The notes under the pieces: generated by a model
What the model was told of the DNA's origin: nothing
What the model saw: the letters and a program-made list of their open reading frames with translations, nothing else
Databases searched by the model: none
Assembly: GCF_024832785.1 (NCBI RefSeq)
Contig: NZ_CP116615.1
Span: forward strand, 3,472,001 to 3,536,000
Direction of reading: 5' to 3'
Origin: Fontisphaera persica
GTDB taxonomy: Bacteria > Verrucomicrobiota > Verrucomicrobiia > Limisphaerales > Fontisphaeraceae
Length of the DNA: 64,000 nt
Shown here: one piece after another, positions 45,776 to 58,738 of the stretch
Layout of the letters: each line of letters opens with the position of its first letter
Position numbering within the stretch: the first letter of the stretch is position 1
Translations under genes and position numbers: made by a program

Positions 45776-47608
45776 TTAACGCGCGGGTTGCGGCTGGTTT
45801 TGGGGCGTAAAATCCGTGGGATGCCCCGGGATGGAATACTCGTAGGCGCTCCGGTACACCCGCACTGGCTCCAGGAAGTTGCCATGTCCGGGCGGGGTGG
45901 GCGTCTGCCACTCCAGCGTGGTGGCCTGCCACGGATTGTCTGATTTCACCGGCTCCCCATGCCGCAGGCTCCAGAAGAAGTTAATGATGAACGGAATTTG
46001 CGCCAGCATCAGTCCAATGGCGGCATGGGTGATGTTGATGTTCAAATCCACCACCCATTGCGGCAGCCCCACCACCGCCAGATTATCCGCCTGGGCGTAG
46101 GTGGCCCCGCCGTCGGACATCCGGCGGCTCATGCCATAAATGCCCTGAATGAACATGGGGAAGAAGACAAGGTTCATGAAAATGAACGACAGCACAAAAT
46201 GCACGCGCCCCCAGAACTCGTTCATAAACCGGCCGGTGGCCTTGGGGTACCAATGATAAATGGCCGCGAAAATGGCAAAGATGGTGCCCGGCGCCACCAC
46301 ATAGTGGAAGTGGCCAATCACATAATAGCTGTCATGCAGGTGGATGTCGCTGAAGCTGAAGCCCAGCGGCAGGCCGGTCAACCCCCCGATGCCAAACATG
46401 GGGAGGAAGGCCAGGGCAAACAACATGGGGGTGTTGAAGCGAATGGAGCCGCCCCAGAGCGACACAAAAAAGCAGGTGATGATGATGACCGAAGGGATGG
46501 AAATAATCATCGTGGTGGTTTGGAAAAACGTGCTCAGGCGCGTGCCCATGCCGGTCAGGTACATGTGATGCGCCCACACAATCATGGACAGAAAACCCAG
46601 CGCCAGCGAGCTGTACACCATCAACCGGTAACCCCAGATGGCTTTGCGCGTGTTGGTGGAAATGACCTCCGCCAGCGTGCCCAGCGCCGGCAAAATCAGC
46701 ACATACACCTCCGGATGCGCCAGAAACCAGAACAAATGCTGGTACAGCAAGGGACTGCCCCCGCCGGAGATGTCCAGGGGCTGGCCACCCACCACCAGGC
46801 CGGTGGGCATGAAGAAACTGGTGCCCAAAACCTTGTCCATGAGCTGCATGATGCCCGCCGCTTCCAGCGGAGGAAAGGCCAGCAGCAGCAGAAAATTGGT
46901 GACCAGTTGGGCCCAGACAAAAAAGGGCAGGCGCATCCAGGTCAGCCCCGGCGCGCGGAGTTGAATGATGGTGGTGATGATATTGATGGACCCCAGCAGG
47001 GAGGAGGTAATCAGCAGCACCATGCCAATGAGCCAGAACGTCTGCCCCATGGTGGGCACCACCACCGCCAGCGGCGAGTAACTCGTCCAGCCGGATTGCG
47101 CCGCTCCCCCCGGAATGAAGAAGCTGACCAACATCACCACCCCGCCCCAGAAATAAATGTGATAGCTCATCATGTTCAGGCGGGGGAAGGCCATGTCCGG
47201 CGCGCCAATTTGGAGCGGCACCAGGTAATTGCCCAGGGCGCCCACAATCATCGGCACCACGGCCAGAAACACCATGATGGTGCCGTGCATCGCGCCAAAG
47301 GAATTGTACAAGTCCGGCGTCATGCGCCCCCCGCGCGCCACATCGCCCAGCACGGCTTCGAGGATGGGGCCAAACACGGGAATGGGCTGGCCGGGATAGG
47401 CCAGTTGCCAGCGCATCAGCAGCATCAGGAAGAAGCCAATCAACATGAACACCAGGGCGGTGATGCCGTATTGGATGCCCACCACCTTGTGGTCCACTGA
47501 AAAAATGTAGCGCCGCCAGAAACTCAGCGGTTCATGGTGCGCCGCGTGAGCCCCATGCTCATGCGGCGCGGTGTGCGCGTGTTCTACCGTGGTTGTGTCC
47601 GACTGCAT
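45776..47608 (-). CDS. coxA: Cytochrome c oxidase subunit I
   Basis: The 610-residue 12-TM subunit has a His-rich N-terminus (HAHTAPHEHGAHAAHH) and all core residues: FGAMHGTIMVF (heme a His), HLFWFLAHPEVYVLILPALG (CuB His-Tyr pair and the proton-channel Glu, as in A1-type oxidases), WAHHMYLTG (CuB His-His), TTTMIISIPSVI (K-channel Thr/Lys region) and HDSYYVIGHFHYVV (heme ligands). It is therefore an aa3-type enzyme. The cluster order ctaA, ctaB, coxA, coxC, two small genes, coxB is compact on the minus strand, with a 110-bp break between ctaB and coxA. Confidence 0.95.
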   Translation of the reverse strand: MQSDTTTVEHAHTAPHEHGAHAAHHEPLSFWRRYIFSVDHKVVGIQYGITALVFMLIGFFLMLLMRWQLAYPGQPIPVFGPILEAVLGDVARGGRMTPDLYNSFGAMHGTIMVFLAVVPMIVGALGNYLVPLQIGAPDMAFPRLNMMSYHIYFWGGVVMLVSFFIPGGAAQSGWTSYSPLAVVVPTMGQTFWLIGMVLLITSSLLGSINIITTIIQLRAPGLTWMRLPFFVWAQLVTNFLLLLAFPPLEAAGIMQLMDKVLGTSFFMPTGLVVGGQPLDISGGGSPLLYQHLFWFLAHPEVYVLILPALGTLAEVISTNTRKAIWGYRLMVYSSLALGFLSMIVWAHHMYLTGMGTRLSTFFQTTTMIISIPSVIIITCFFVSLWGGSIRFNTPMLFALAFLPMFGIGGLTGLPLGFSFSDIHLHDSYYVIGHFHYVVAPGTIFAIFAAIYHWYPKATGRFMNEFWGRVHFVLSFIFMNLVFFPMFIQGIYGMSRRMSDGGATYAQADNLAVVGLPQWVVDLNINITHAAIGLMLAQIPFIINFFWSLRHGEPVKSDNPWQATTLEWQTPTPPGHGNFLEPVRVYRSAYEYSIPGHPTDFTPQNQPQPAR

Positions 47609-47719
47609 ATTACTTTGCCTGCCCCAAACCCAAACCCGCCATGATTCGCAACGGGCCGGCTAAAATTGTCTTGTGTCCTGGAGGTGTCAAATGGCCGCCC
47701 ACAGGTATTAAGCCGGCTG

Positions 47720-54164: not shown

Positions 54165-54349
54165 GGCGGAAATATGCCTCCGCCATTCGGCCCGATAAAG
54201 GAGAAACCGCCTGACCCCGCCCCCCGGGCCGCGCCGTGGGCCGCCCGCCGCCGGACGCCGGCTTTCCCGCCAGCGCAGATTGCCGCCTTGCATTTCCGGG
54301 CCGCTTCTTTCTACTCTTTGTGGCTTGGGGCTTTTTGGGTTGTTTTGTT

Positions 54350-57300
54350 GTGAAAGAACCGCTTTCGATTCGCCGGTTTTTTGCCGGCAAAAAAGTGTTG
54401 TTGACCGGAGCCACGGGCTTCCTGGCCAAGGCCGTGATGGAAAAAATCCTTCACGACCTGCCGGACATCGGGGGCATTTATCTGCTCATCCGCCCCCGCC
54501 GCAAGCCCGATGGCACCCTCATTCCCGCCCGCGAGCGCTTGCGCGATGAAATCCTGCGCAACAGCGCCTTCGGCCGGCTGCGCGAAAAACTGGGGGAGGA
54601 CTTCGAGGCTTTTTGTGAATCGCGCATCCGCATCGTGAGCGGCGACCTCACCCTCCCGCGGCTGGGCCTCGCAGAAACGGAGTTCCAGGCGCTGGCGGCC
54701 GAGGTGGACATCATCATCAACAGCGCCGCCACCGTGGTGTTTGACGAGCGGCTGGACCTCGCCTTGAGCCTCAACACCCTGGGCCCCGCCCGCCTCCTCG
54801 AGCTGGCCCAGGCCGGCCATGCCCTCTACGTCCACATCTCCACCGCCTACGTCTGCGGCAAACGCACCGGCCACGTCCCCGAAAAACTGCTGGACCCCCT
54901 CGAAGCCATTGACGCCCAGCTCCCCCCCGGCGCCGAGCGGCCCGCCCGTTTCGTGGTCAAAGAGGAAATTGCCGCCCTCCACCAACTGGCCGAGCAGGTC
55001 AAAGCCCGCTGCGCCGAGGAAATCCGCCGCCGCGGCTGGGACCCCAACAGCGAGGACGCCCGCAATTACCTCGAAAAGGAGCTGGTGGACGCCGGCATGC
55101 GCCGGGCCCAGCAATTGGGTTGGAATGACACTTATACCTTCACCAAGTTTCTCGGTGAGCAACTTGTCCGCCAGGACCGCGGCAAAGTGCCCGTGGTCAT
55201 CGTCCGCCCCTCCATCATCGAATCCTCCCTCCGGGACCCCGAGCCGGGCTGGCTGGACGGCTTGCGCATGGCCGACCCCATCATCATCGGCTTCGGCAAG
55301 GGCCGCCTGAATGATTTTCCCGCCAACCGCAACATCGTGCTGGACATCATTCCCGCCGATTTCGTGGTCAACTGCGTCCTGGCCGCCGCCGCGCACATCG
55401 CCCGCGAACCGTCGGGCTTTGATTTGTTCACCGTGGCCAGCTCCACCAAAAACCCGCTGTGGTTTGAAAGCCTCTACACGCACGTGCGCGATTATTTCCT
55501 CAAGCACCCCTTCACCGACCGCAGCGGCAAACCCATCCGCGTGCAGGAGTGGAAATTCCGCCCCATCGCCGAGTACCGGCAGCTCATGGTGGCCCGCTAC
55601 CTGCGCCCCGCCCAACTGGGGCTGGCGCTGGTCAATGGCCCCGTGCCCATCCCCGGCGCGCGCAAGTGGCGGCCCCGCCTTAAAAATTACGTCAATAAAA
55701 TCGAGCAGCTCCTCTACTACGTGGACATCTACGGCCCGTATGTGAACCTGGACTGCCGCTTTGAAACCGAGCGCTCCTTTGCCCTGCTCGAATCCCTCGA
55801 GCCGGAGGAACGCAAACTCTTCAACTTTGACCCCCGCGTCTTCCACTGGCGCGGCTACCTCCAGGATGTCCACATCCCCGGCCTCAAGCGCAACATCCTC
55901 CGCATGGACGCCGTCCCCCGCACCGGCGCCAGCCAGGGCCGCCTGCTGGAGGAGGAGGGTCGCGCGGCCAAAACCGCCGCCACCACCCCCGTCATCCGCG
56001 GTGTCCCCCAAACCATTGTGGACATCGCCCGCCGCGGCCATGAACGCTTCGGCAGCAAAACCTTCCTGGAAATTCGCCGCTCCCGCGCGGAAAACGGGCC
56101 GGCGCATGTGCGGTGGAGCTACTCCGATTTCTGGGAGCTTTCCGGCCGGCTGGCGCGCAAACTGGGCGCGCACTTGAACCTGCACCTGGGCGACCGCGTC
56201 GCGCTCATGGGCGAAAACTGCCCCGAATGGGCGCTGGCCTACCTGGCCATTGTCCGCGCCGGCGCCACCGCCGTCCCCCTGGACCGCATGCTGCCCGCCG
56301 CCGAGGTGCGGCGCATTTTGCACATGGTGGGCGCGCGCGCGCTCATCGTCAGTCCCGCTTGTCTAAAGGCCCTGCGCAGCAATGGCAACGGCCACGGCGG
56401 AGCGGCGCTGCCGCTGTGTCTGAATCTGTTGCAGGACATGGAACCGTTTGACGGGGAAACCTGGCCCCATCCCGAAGCCCGCCCCGAAAGCCGCGTGCTG
56501 CGCGACCCGGCGCCCGAAGCCCTGGCCTCCCTGCTGTTTACCAGCGGCACCACCGTGGAACCCAAGGGCGTCATGCTCACCCACGCCAACTTTGTGGCCA
56601 ATGCCATGGCGGTTTCCGAAGTGCTCGAGCCCCTGGAAACCGACCGCTTCCTCTCCGTCCTCCCGCTGCACCACGCCTTTGAATTCACCGCCGGCTTTCT
56701 CATCCCGATGCTCGGCGGCGCCTCCATCTACCATCTGGAGCAGCTCAAAGCGCAGGAAGTGCTCGACGCCATGCGCTTGCATGAAATCACCGTCATGCTC
56801 GGCGTGCCCCGCCTCTTCAAGTTGTTCCGCGACGGCGTCCAGGCGCGCATCCAGGCCGCCGGCCTGCCCGGCCAGCTCATGCTTGAATTGGGCGAAATGG
56901 CCTGCCTGGCCGGCGAAGTGTTTGGCGCCGACTGGCGGCCGCGCGTCTTTCGCAAGGTGCACGAGGCCTTCGGCGGCCACATCCGCGTCTTTGTCTCTGG
57001 CGGCGCCGCGCTGGACCCCGAAATATTCCATTTCTTCAAACGCTTTGGCCTGACGATTTGCGAGGGGTACGGCCTGACCGAAACCTCCCCCGTCCTCAGC
57101 GTCAACCCCCTGGCCGCGCCCAAGGCCGGCTCCGTGGGGCCGGTCATTCCCGGCATGGAAATCAACATCCTGCCCCTGGAGGCCGACGAGGAAATCGGCG
57201 AAATCCTGGTGCGCGGCCCCTCCGTGATGCACGGTTACTGGCAGAATCCCCAGGCCACCGCCGCCGTCTTTGCCGAAGGCTGGTTCAAGACCGGTGACCT

Positions 57301-58738
57301 GGGCAAGTTTGACGAGGACGGTTACCTCTACATCACTGGCCGCCTCAAGGACATCATCGTCACCAGCGCCGGCAAGAATGTTTATCCCGATGACGTCGAG
57401 CACCACCTCCAGGGCATCCCCGGCGTCAAAGAAATGTGTGTCATCGGCCTGCCCGGGCGTGACGGCCAGGGAGAAGAAGTCACGCTGGTGGTCGTGCCGG
57501 AGAATCCCGATGCCCGCCCGGCCATCGAGGCCGCCGTGGCCCGCATCTGCGCCGAGCTGCCCAGCCACCAGCGCGTAAGCCGCCTGGAATTTCAAACGGA
57601 AGATTTGCCCAAAACCACCACCCTGAAAATTCAGCGCGCCAAAGTCCGGCAGCGCTATCTGACTGGCGCCCGCGCCCAAAAACCCACCCCCGCCCCCGCG
57701 GTGGCCGCCCTGGCTGCCACCCCCGGTGAAGCGCTGGCCGATACCAGCACCGTCGAGGTGGAAGTGGCGCGCGCCGTCGCCCGCGTGGCCGGCAACCTCC
57801 CGCCCGCCGAAGTGGAGCCGCACCACAAATTGCAGATGGATTTGGGCATTGACTCCATTGGCCGCGTGGATTTGCTCCAAAGCCTGGAAGTCCGTTTCTC
57901 CATCACTTTGCCTCAGGGCACCGAGGACCAAGTCCTGACCGTGCAGGACGTGGTGGCGGTGGTGGAAAAGGCGCGCCAGCAGCAGGCCGCCGCCCGCCCG
58001 CGCCGCGTGCGCCGTTTATGGGAGCGCGCCCATGTCCCCCACGACGCCCTCCAGGCCGGCATGCGCCAGACCCGCGCCCGCCTGCTGTTGCGCGGACTGT
58101 TCGAGGCCGTCACCGGCTTCATCATGAGCACGCATCTGCGCGTGCGCGGCGATGGCCTGGAACATTTGCCCGCCAAGGGACCGTACATCCTGGCCGCCAA
58201 CCACTCCAGCCATCTGGACCTGCCCGCCATCCGCAAAGTGCTCGGACCGGCCGCCCGCAACCTGCACGCCATGGCCGCCAAGGATTATTTCTTCAACACG
58301 CCGTTCAAGCGGTGGTTCTTTACCACCTTCCTCAACGCTCTGCCGCTGGACCGCGAGGCCAACGCCGCCGAAAGCCTGGCCGTCTGCAAAACCGTCCTCG
58401 ACAGCGGCCGCTCCATCCTCATCTTCCCCGAAGGCACCCGCTCGATTACCGGTGATTTGCAGCCCTTCAAACCCGGCGTGGGCGTCCTGGCCGTGGAACT
58501 GGATTACCCCATCATCCCCGTCTGGATTCAGGGCGCCTATGACGCCCTGCCCAAGGGCCGCGTCATTCCGCGACCGGGGCATATTGAAGTCCGCATCGGC
58601 CAGCCGGTGGATTTCGCCCATCTGCGTGCCCAGCGCGAGCAGGCCTCCGTTTCCGACCTCTACCGCCGCGCCGCCCAGATTTTGCGCGAGCAGGTGGAAG
58701 CCCTGGCGGATTTGCCGCCGCTCAAAGACCGCTCCTAG
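54350..58738 (+). CDS. Four-domain lipid enzyme: acyl reductase, AMP-ligase, ACP, PlsC acyltransferase
   Basis: The frame is open from 54236; the N-terminus to about residue 38 of that frame looks non-native, so GTG 54350 is preferred, though no ribosome site is seen. Numbering below is from 54236. Residues about 45-570: thioester/fatty-acyl reductase (NAD_binding_4), GATGF at 58-62, YTFTK with Tyr 300/Lys 304, plus a helical sterile-like domain. About 600-1130: acyl-AMP ligase (TSGTT 769-773, YGLTE at 945, GRLKDIIVTSAGK with Lys 1047). About 1165-1225: acyl carrier (DLGIDSIGRVDLL, phosphopantetheine Ser 1207). About 1280-1490: PlsC acyltransferase (NHSSHLD, His 1323/Asp 1328; FPEGTRS at 1398-1404). 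A plausible path is activation of a fatty acid, loading on ACP, reduction to aldehyde or alcohol, and acyl transfer. The product is not known. No motif is visibly missing. Confidence 0.85.
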   Translation: MKEPLSIRRFFAGKKVLLTGATGFLAKAVMEKILHDLPDIGGIYLLIRPRRKPDGTLIPARERLRDEILRNSAFGRLREKLGEDFEAFCESRIRIVSGDLTLPRLGLAETEFQALAAEVDIIINSAATVVFDERLDLALSLNTLGPARLLELAQAGHALYVHISTAYVCGKRTGHVPEKLLDPLEAIDAQLPPGAERPARFVVKEEIAALHQLAEQVKARCAEEIRRRGWDPNSEDARNYLEKELVDAGMRRAQQLGWNDTYTFTKFLGEQLVRQDRGKVPVVIVRPSIIESSLRDPEPGWLDGLRMADPIIIGFGKGRLNDFPANRNIVLDIIPADFVVNCVLAAAAHIAREPSGFDLFTVASSTKNPLWFESLYTHVRDYFLKHPFTDRSGKPIRVQEWKFRPIAEYRQLMVARYLRPAQLGLALVNGPVPIPGARKWRPRLKNYVNKIEQLLYYVDIYGPYVNLDCRFETERSFALLESLEPEERKLFNFDPRVFHWRGYLQDVHIPGLKRNILRMDAVPRTGASQGRLLEEEGRAAKTAATTPVIRGVPQTIVDIARRGHERFGSKTFLEIRRSRAENGPAHVRWSYSDFWELSGRLARKLGAHLNLHLGDRVALMGENCPEWALAYLAIVRAGATAVPLDRMLPAAEVRRILHMVGARALIVSPACLKALRSNGNGHGGAALPLCLNLLQDMEPFDGETWPHPEARPESRVLRDPAPEALASLLFTSGTTVEPKGVMLTHANFVANAMAVSEVLEPLETDRFLSVLPLHHAFEFTAGFLIPMLGGASIYHLEQLKAQEVLDAMRLHEITVMLGVPRLFKLFRDGVQARIQAAGLPGQLMLELGEMACLAGEVFGADWRPRVFRKVHEAFGGHIRVFVSGGAALDPEIFHFFKRFGLTICEGYGLTETSPVLSVNPLAAPKAGSVGPVIPGMEINILPLEADEEIGEILVRGPSVMHGYWQNPQATAAVFAEGWFKTGDLGKFDEDGYLYITGRLKDIIVTSAGKNVYPDDVEHHLQGIPGVKEMCVIGLPGRDGQGEEVTLVVVPENPDARPAIEAAVARICAELPSHQRVSRLEFQTEDLPKTTTLKIQRAKVRQRYLTGARAQKPTPAPAVAALAATPGEALADTSTVEVEVARAVARVAGNLPPAEVEPHHKLQMDLGIDSIGRVDLLQSLEVRFSITLPQGTEDQVLTVQDVVAVVEKARQQQAAARPRRVRRLWERAHVPHDALQAGMRQTRARLLLRGLFEAVTGFIMSTHLRVRGDGLEHLPAKGPYILAANHSSHLDLPAIRKVLGPAARNLHAMAAKDYFFNTPFKRWFFTTFLNALPLDREANAAESLAVCKTVLDSGRSILIFPEGTRSITGDLQPFKPGVGVLAVELDYPIIPVWIQGAYDALPKGRVIPRPGHIEVRIGQPVDFAHLRAQREQASVSDLYRRAAQILREQVEALADLPPLKDRS

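Follow-up and report, generated by a model that had tools for sequence, protein, structure and literature searches.

An ElbD-type four-domain enzyme of Fontisphaera persica and its probable place in an ether-lipid pathway without alkylglycerone synthase

Which lipid is made by a protein that joins an acyl reductase, an acyl ligase, an acyl carrier and a PlsC-type acyltransferase in one chain? The question is raised by a gene in the stretch of the Fontisphaera persica genome analyzed here (64,000 nucleotides, hereafter the window). A preliminary description of the DNA had proposed a route to fatty alcohols, wax esters or ether lipids, an interpretation that is partly supported by the present analysis. 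The protein is read here as an ElbD-type multifunctional lipid enzyme, probably of an ether-lipid pathway that runs without alkylglycerone synthase (AGPS), and a probability of about 0.6 is given to this reading. The gene and its domains are as follows.

54350..58738, + strand: whole ElbD-type gene, 1462 aa; GTG start (placed by conservation), TAG stop; open frame
54401..55375, + strand: fatty acyl-CoA reductase (FAR) NAD-binding domain, PF07993 (Pfam; TGATGF, STAYV, YTFTK)
55670..55903, + strand: "Sterile" C-terminal domain of fatty acyl-CoA reductases, PF03015 (Pfam, 43.5 bits against a cut-off of 35.4)
56102..57241, + strand: AMP-binding (acyl ligase) domain, PF00501 (Pfam; TSGTT at residue 731)
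57395..57622, + strand: AMP-binding C-terminal domain, PF13193 (Pfam; LPKTTTLK with K1093)
57764..57958, + strand: acyl carrier domain, PF00550 (Pfam; codon of the phosphopantetheine Ser1169 at 57854-57856)
58142..58528, + strand: PlsC-type acyltransferase domain, PF01553 (Pfam; NHSSHLD, FPEGTR)

The gene is a single intact reading frame of 1462 residues (54350-58738, +). The frame is already open upstream of position 54236 and runs to 58738, and conservation with four relatives begins at about the GTG at 54350. From the N to the C terminus, the Pfam matches are NAD_binding_4 (3e-67), Sterile (4e-11), AMP-binding (1e-77), AMP-binding_C (6e-7), PP-binding (3e-6) and Acyltransferase (1.5e-28); all lie above cut-off, and the proposed fusion of acyl reductase, acyl ligase, ACP and PlsC is confirmed. 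The diagnostic residues named beforehand are likewise all found in the 1462-residue protein, where the reductase motifs TGATGF, STAYV and YTFTK start at residues 19, 164 and 262, the ligase motif TSGTT at 731, and the carrier and PlsC motifs DLGIDSI (with Ser1169), NHSSHLD and FPEGTR at 1164, 1284 and 1359. LPKTTTLK contains K1093, which we take to be the catalytic lysine of the acyl ligase family. Over almost its whole length, the FAR part aligns with the solved fatty acyl-CoA reductase 7eoz (E 3.5e-97), its sole solved match at E ≤ 1e-10. Carboxylic acid reductases and the enzymes of NRPS terminal reduction have the order A-T-R; a relation to these was set aside, the reductase here being N-terminal and carrying a Sterile domain.

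Seven flanking genes were scanned, among them a beta-CASP metallohydrolase, CutA, GH43, GT9 and GT2. None is lipid-related, as the preliminary description had stated for the immediate surroundings, and none is an epimerase-family (elbA/elbE-like) gene. Some 5-9 kb upstream, the ElbD-type gene is preceded by mutually related reading frames, by eye resembling cytochrome oxidase subunit I, in the window (about 45776-47659) and in three Planctomycetota loci (L062:2194-3972, L064:2365-4416 and L079:2068-3840), possibly an old common neighborhood of the gene.

ElbD of Myxococcus xanthus was reportedly described by Lorenzen et al. in 2014. In the accessible part of a review (PMC9131029), the protein is described as an N-terminal FAR1-like domain followed by ACS, ACP and an AGPAT-like acyltransferase. 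A comparison with ElbD had been called for, and the order FAR, ACS, ACP, AGPAT given in that description is the order of the window protein. The fusion is therefore of a known kind, and the suggestion that it is novel was rejected: ElbD is a named, biochemically defined family with identical domain order. As far as the same text reports, ACP and ACS activities of M. xanthus ElbD were confirmed in vitro, neither acyltransferase activity nor fatty alcohols were detected there, and insertion into elbD strongly lowers the ether lipids; how ElbD makes them is called an open question (PMC9131029). ElbD-like proteins from some bacteria in other phyla are mentioned as well, nearly all of them lacking the FAR1 domain. 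Homologues from sponge symbionts (Acidobacteriota and Poribacteria) have the same four domains in the same order, and the accessible text describes their neighbors in general terms as hydrolases/dehydratases and oxidoreductases (PMC9426513). By its architecture and motifs, set against M. xanthus ElbD as described in the review, the window protein is best classed as ElbD-type, and it probably functions in the way assumed for ElbD.

Within the order to which F. persica belongs, full-length fusions were found in 5 of 245 genomes, its own included (reductase part at E ≤ 1e-30), and the other four proteins are 59-93% identical to that of the window. In a sample of 288 genomes of the phylum, the window's genome alone gave a full-length match among the matches listed (best first), whereas ElbD homologues are reported in 43 of 270 Verrucomicrobia MAGs from the Black Sea in the accessible part of PMC11868695. 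Scanning of named genomes yielded 23 loci, comprising 18 full-length fusions (L062, with an in-frame stop, among them), 4 stand-alone reductases and 1 gene cut by a contig end, from records labeled Verrucomicrobiota, Planctomycetota, Armatimonadetes, Gemmatimonadetes, Latescibacterota, Handelsmanbacteria and one plain "bacterium"; no myxobacterial sequence was among them. Two of these loci (L060 in G299 and L061 in G333) come from Verrucomicrobia(ota)-labeled records of the same order as the window's genome. Reading frames of 1406-1541 residues from other phyla align collinearly with the four-domain protein in BLAST, which indicates that the fusion is not due to chance. Among plasmid records, no single place covered 80% of the four-domain query.

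A reductase tree of 25 rows (L062, with its in-frame stop, left out) contains a Verrucomicrobiota/Planctomycetota group (100/99), which Armatimonadota L066 joins (94/93), a group of stand-alone reductases (100/100) and a Gemmatimonadota/Latescibacterota group of fusions (100/99). Motifs were compared in 20 fused proteins; the stand-alone reductases, L062 and L065, which is truncated at the contig end, were left out. The glycine-rich motif, the STxY serine and YxxxK of the reductase are present in all 20. Ligase, ACP and PlsC motifs are complete in the eight Verrucomicrobiota/Planctomycetota fusions, so that the window's protein belongs to the branch with complete motifs. The lysine aligned with K1093 is lost in all of the other 12 (11 members of the Latescibacterota/Gemmatimonadota group and L066), and the HX4D of PlsC is lost in five fusions (L070, L073, L075, L076 and L080). 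Judged from sequence, these domains appear to have decayed within a fusion that kept its reductase motifs, and the reductase hence looks central. The Planctomycetota MAG L062 has an in-frame TAA (L062:10874-10876) within the four-domain gene, together with an AGPS and no HAD gene. The reductase of L067, labeled Gemmatimonas phototrophica, is nearly identical to that of Latescibacterota L077 (end branches of 0.011 and 0.013), which suggests a mis-binned MAG.

The stand-alone reductases, from Latescibacterota/Gemmatimonadota, provide a link to ether lipids. In 4 of 4 loci (L071, L072, L078 and L082), they adjoin a GNPAT-like gene and AGPS. The AGPS tested, that of L072, reaches 508 bits with peroxisomal alkyl-DHAP synthase and 92 with glycolate oxidase. 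This arrangement ties the reductase family to ether-lipid synthesis. The reductases are 37-40% identical to that of the window; in contrast to the window's gene, they are separate genes with AGPS present and no fused ligase, ACP or PlsC. MXAN_1675/1676 may be compared (PMC9131029, accessible part); the neighbors of AGPS are called GNPAT-like because of where they lie and by comparison with MXAN_1675 of that review. Between FAR and AGPS in L072, a 657-residue protein (L072:11637-13607) has no match in Pfam, NCBIfam or PDB and is probably a DHAP acyltransferase. The sets of L071, L072 and L082 also adjoin, by eye, opposite-strand genes resembling fabH, fabD and fabF.

The genome of the window itself appears to hold no AGPS, the enzyme that usually makes the ether bond. 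The search that had been proposed for it gave three FAD-domain matches only, the best partial and at 84 bits, and an AGPS was rejected after comparison with solved proteins in both directions: candidate L058 scores 295 and 292 bits with LctD/glycolate oxidase and 93 with AGPS. The HHH motif, presumably the signature of AGPS, was looked for in loci L083-L094, L057 and L058, and is absent from the last two. No CarF (Lipid_desat, PF10520) match was found in this genome, although all control genomes were silent too. HGD-D (PF06050), which we take to be carried by Ger/PlsA, also gave no match, with 2 of 14 controls positive. M. xanthus differs in having AGPS (MXAN_1676), CarF and elbA/C/E, according to the accessible part of PMC9131029.

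A HAD phosphatase gene and AGPS exclude each other. Of 23 reductase-bearing genomes, 12 gave a match to the HAD gene (E ≤ 3.7e-41) but none to an AGPS with the HHH motif, and in 11 such an AGPS was found without a HAD gene; none has both and none has neither (Fisher p 7e-7, kinship ignored). The count covers 23 of the 26 known reductase-bearing genomes, those of L065, L075 and L076 being left out. The 11 AGPS genomes have no HAD match better than E 1.1e-7, and the partial matches in G545 (1.1e-7) and G546 (6.9e-4) were scored as absent. An AGPS-like match of 144 bits in G535, in a reading frame without the HHH motif, was not counted as AGPS. The split largely follows phylum lines, but switches occur within groups, between L069 (AGPS) and L067, L068 and L077 (HAD), and within Planctomycetota between L062 (AGPS) and L063, L064 and L079 (HAD). 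Many of the 23 genomes are MAGs, so that single absences are weak.

The M. xanthus elb operon also includes a HAD gene, elbB, along with elbA and elbE of the NAD epimerase family and elbC, as outlined in the accessible part of PMC9131029. In the loci related to the window, a HAD gene lies directly 3′ of the ElbD-type gene in L054, L060, L061, L063, L066 and L079, that is, in 6 of the 10 Verrucomicrobiota/Planctomycetota/Armatimonadota loci that run past it, but not in the window, L053, L062 or L064; in the congener it is likewise non-adjacent. The preliminary description had seen no lipid operon around the gene. This holds for the window, but the six loci have the HAD gene directly behind, and the window's genome has its HAD gene in a cluster elsewhere (C1:1387948-1388595, unlinked to the ElbD-type gene). 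The protein is of the HAD-IB type (TIGR01490 above cut-off in two of three copies, the third at 97.5 against 98.3). In F. persica it opens a tight same-strand run of HAD, zinc alcohol dehydrogenase (ADH) and LarA-like (Lar_N) genes, and the congener (L118) has the same run. Unlike the elb operon, the ElbD-type gene here stands apart from lipid genes, with HAD elsewhere beside ADH and LarA-like genes.

The members of this run recur together with ElbD-type genes and a lipid kinase. Armatimonadota L066 has a contiguous ElbD-HAD-ADH-LarA array and G355 has ElbD-HAD-ADH; ADH and LarA-like genes are neighbors in G299, and LarA-like and DAGK/YegS lipid kinase genes in three Verrucomicrobiota (G355, G299 and G333). 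The HAD-ADH-LarA trio lies at a separate locus with DAGK/YegS and MlaD in L120-L122 (labeled Latescibacterota, two, and Gemmatimonas, one). Fused Gemmatimonadota/Latescibacterota genes lie near DAGK and MlaD in L073, L075, L076, L080 and L081, and near MlaD alone in L070 and L074. These pairwise adjacencies link ElbD, HAD, ADH, LarA and DAGK. Neighbor clustering was swamped by shadow reading frames in GC-rich DNA and served as a lead only. Across the 245 genomes of the order, HAD (E ≤ 4.5e-53; next genome 8.5e-17) and LarA-like matches (E ≤ 4.7e-282; next genome 9.5e-15) occur in exactly the five with the four-domain gene, by thresholds chosen after the gap was seen; at looser limits, some HAD match occurs in 22 genomes (E ≤ 1e-5) and some LarA-like match in 48 (E ≤ 1e-10). 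With kinship ignored, a complete match would arise by chance with a probability of 1.4e-10 by genome and 1.4e-7 by genus. Three of the five genomes belong to one family, so that the match amounts to about three independent lineages. By gene neighborhood in relatives, the HAD-ADH-LarA-like set probably acts in the same pathway as the four-domain enzyme.

The LarA-like protein is closest among solved proteins to 9q2u (E 7e-31) and 9q3j (E 5e-28); lactate and malate racemases are more distant (4e-10 to 6e-10). Four features do not vary among nine homologues: the first catalytic His (LHR), the Lys that binds the cofactor (GG[HY]K), a His located 16 residues further along, and an NxN at the place of the second catalytic His, its Asn aligning with Asn185 only with a one-residue gap. 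Part of these residue roles is presumed; the others follow the accessible part of PMC12611868. Their molecule titles and the numbering of the motifs identify 9q2u and 9q3j as the single-histidine LarA_Sp and LarA_Bw of that paper. They lack the second catalytic His as the partner protein does, but Lys76 of LarA_Sp aligns with Leu in the partner, and they adjoin glycolysis genes whereas the partner travels with ElbD. The text available describes this nickel-pincer subfamily as having no substrate assigned and proposes a role in carbohydrate metabolism from gene context (PMC12611868); such proteins may shift hydride to an adjacent site (PMC7583248, accessible part).

How, then, could the enzyme act? 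The ligase domain would activate a fatty acid with ATP and load the carrier domain of the same chain, activities known for M. xanthus ElbD only (PMC9131029, accessible part). The FAR-type reductase with its Sterile domain may take the held chain to the aldehyde or alcohol, the PlsC domain may pass an acyl chain to glycerol-phosphate or alkyl-glycerol-phosphate, and an ether lipid or a precursor would result, with the HAD, ADH and LarA-like partners contributing to the pathway. We infer this product in the face of several points: no AGPS found in the genome, and no CarF (silent controls) or HGD-D match; no acyltransferase activity or fatty alcohol reported for M. xanthus ElbD in vitro; a HAD gene that is non-adjacent in the window and the congener, and in G534 (L119) has no ADH or LarA-like gene beside it; a 5-of-5 co-occurrence of about three lineages; and loss of the ligase lysine in the HAD-bearing L067, L068 and L077 of the Latescibacterota group, so that not every genome with the HAD set retains all the activities. 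Pontiella, of the Verrucomicrobia, has ElbD homologues, yet ether lipids were not detected according to the accessible part of PMC11868695.

The Pontiella result would also suit a role like that of Aas, in which acyl-ACP synthetase and acyltransferase salvage or remodel membrane acyl chains and the reductase is an aldehyde-giving side activity. At least 26 of the 288 phylum genomes have reading frames of 819-1044 residues that match from ligase to PlsC without room for a reductase, and acyl-[ACP]-phospholipid O-acyltransferase is among the NCBIfam matches of the window protein. The latter score, 265 bits, falls well short of the cut-off of 1221, and fusions that lose the ligase lysine (12) or HX4D (5) and keep the reductase throughout argue against such a role, which is improbable. 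A different lipid from a glycerol ether is unlikely but deserves more weight: the partners would assemble or trim an unusual backbone or head group of polyol or hydroxy-acid type, to which the four-domain enzyme would add acyl or alkyl chains. The solved proteins closest to the ADH of F. persica are ketose reductase, xylitol dehydrogenase and other alcohol/polyol dehydrogenases, the carbohydrate role proposed for single-histidine LarA proteins (PMC12611868) points the same way, and DAGK/YegS adjoins the LarA-like gene in the six loci named above. Against this stand the homologous stand-alone reductases beside AGPS and the effect of ElbD on ether lipids in vivo in M. xanthus (PMC9131029, accessible part). 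That the enzyme supplies fatty alcohols to wax esters or a storage lipid is very improbable. FAR and Sterile domains, both present here, are typical of alcohol-forming reductases, but the fused partner is PlsC rather than a wax synthase and ten genomes gave no WS/DGAT (PF03007) match, the control genomes being silent too, and the wax-ester route proposed earlier is left unsupported.

For the ether-lipid reading, the new element is the AGPS-free setting with its HAD-ADH-LarA-like companions, a set that may replace AGPS or build a different backbone. A more specific proposal, quite doubtful at present, is that HAD, the polyol-dehydrogenase-like ADH, the LarA-like protein and the lipid kinase stand in for AGPS, the nickel-pincer enzyme helping to form the ether bond or an ether-ready backbone; if true, this would fill in the step still missing from the ElbD route. 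With all four domain motifs kept and no AGPS or HGD-D protein found, the lineage may isolate that route, and a link of the LarA-like protein to lipid synthesis would give a testable lead both on it and on the substrate of the nickel-pincer subfamily. In the literature searched, which excludes subscription papers such as Lorenzen 2014, no paper joining "ether lipid" with "lactate racemase" was found, and those returned for "nickel-pincer" with "phospholipid" concern other subjects by their titles. Immediately before the HAD-ADH-LarA run of F. persica lies a TPR-repeat gene with a weak, sub-cut-off match to GDSL lipases (L117:8709-10637), and a similar-looking reading frame precedes the run of the congener (L118:9836-11707).
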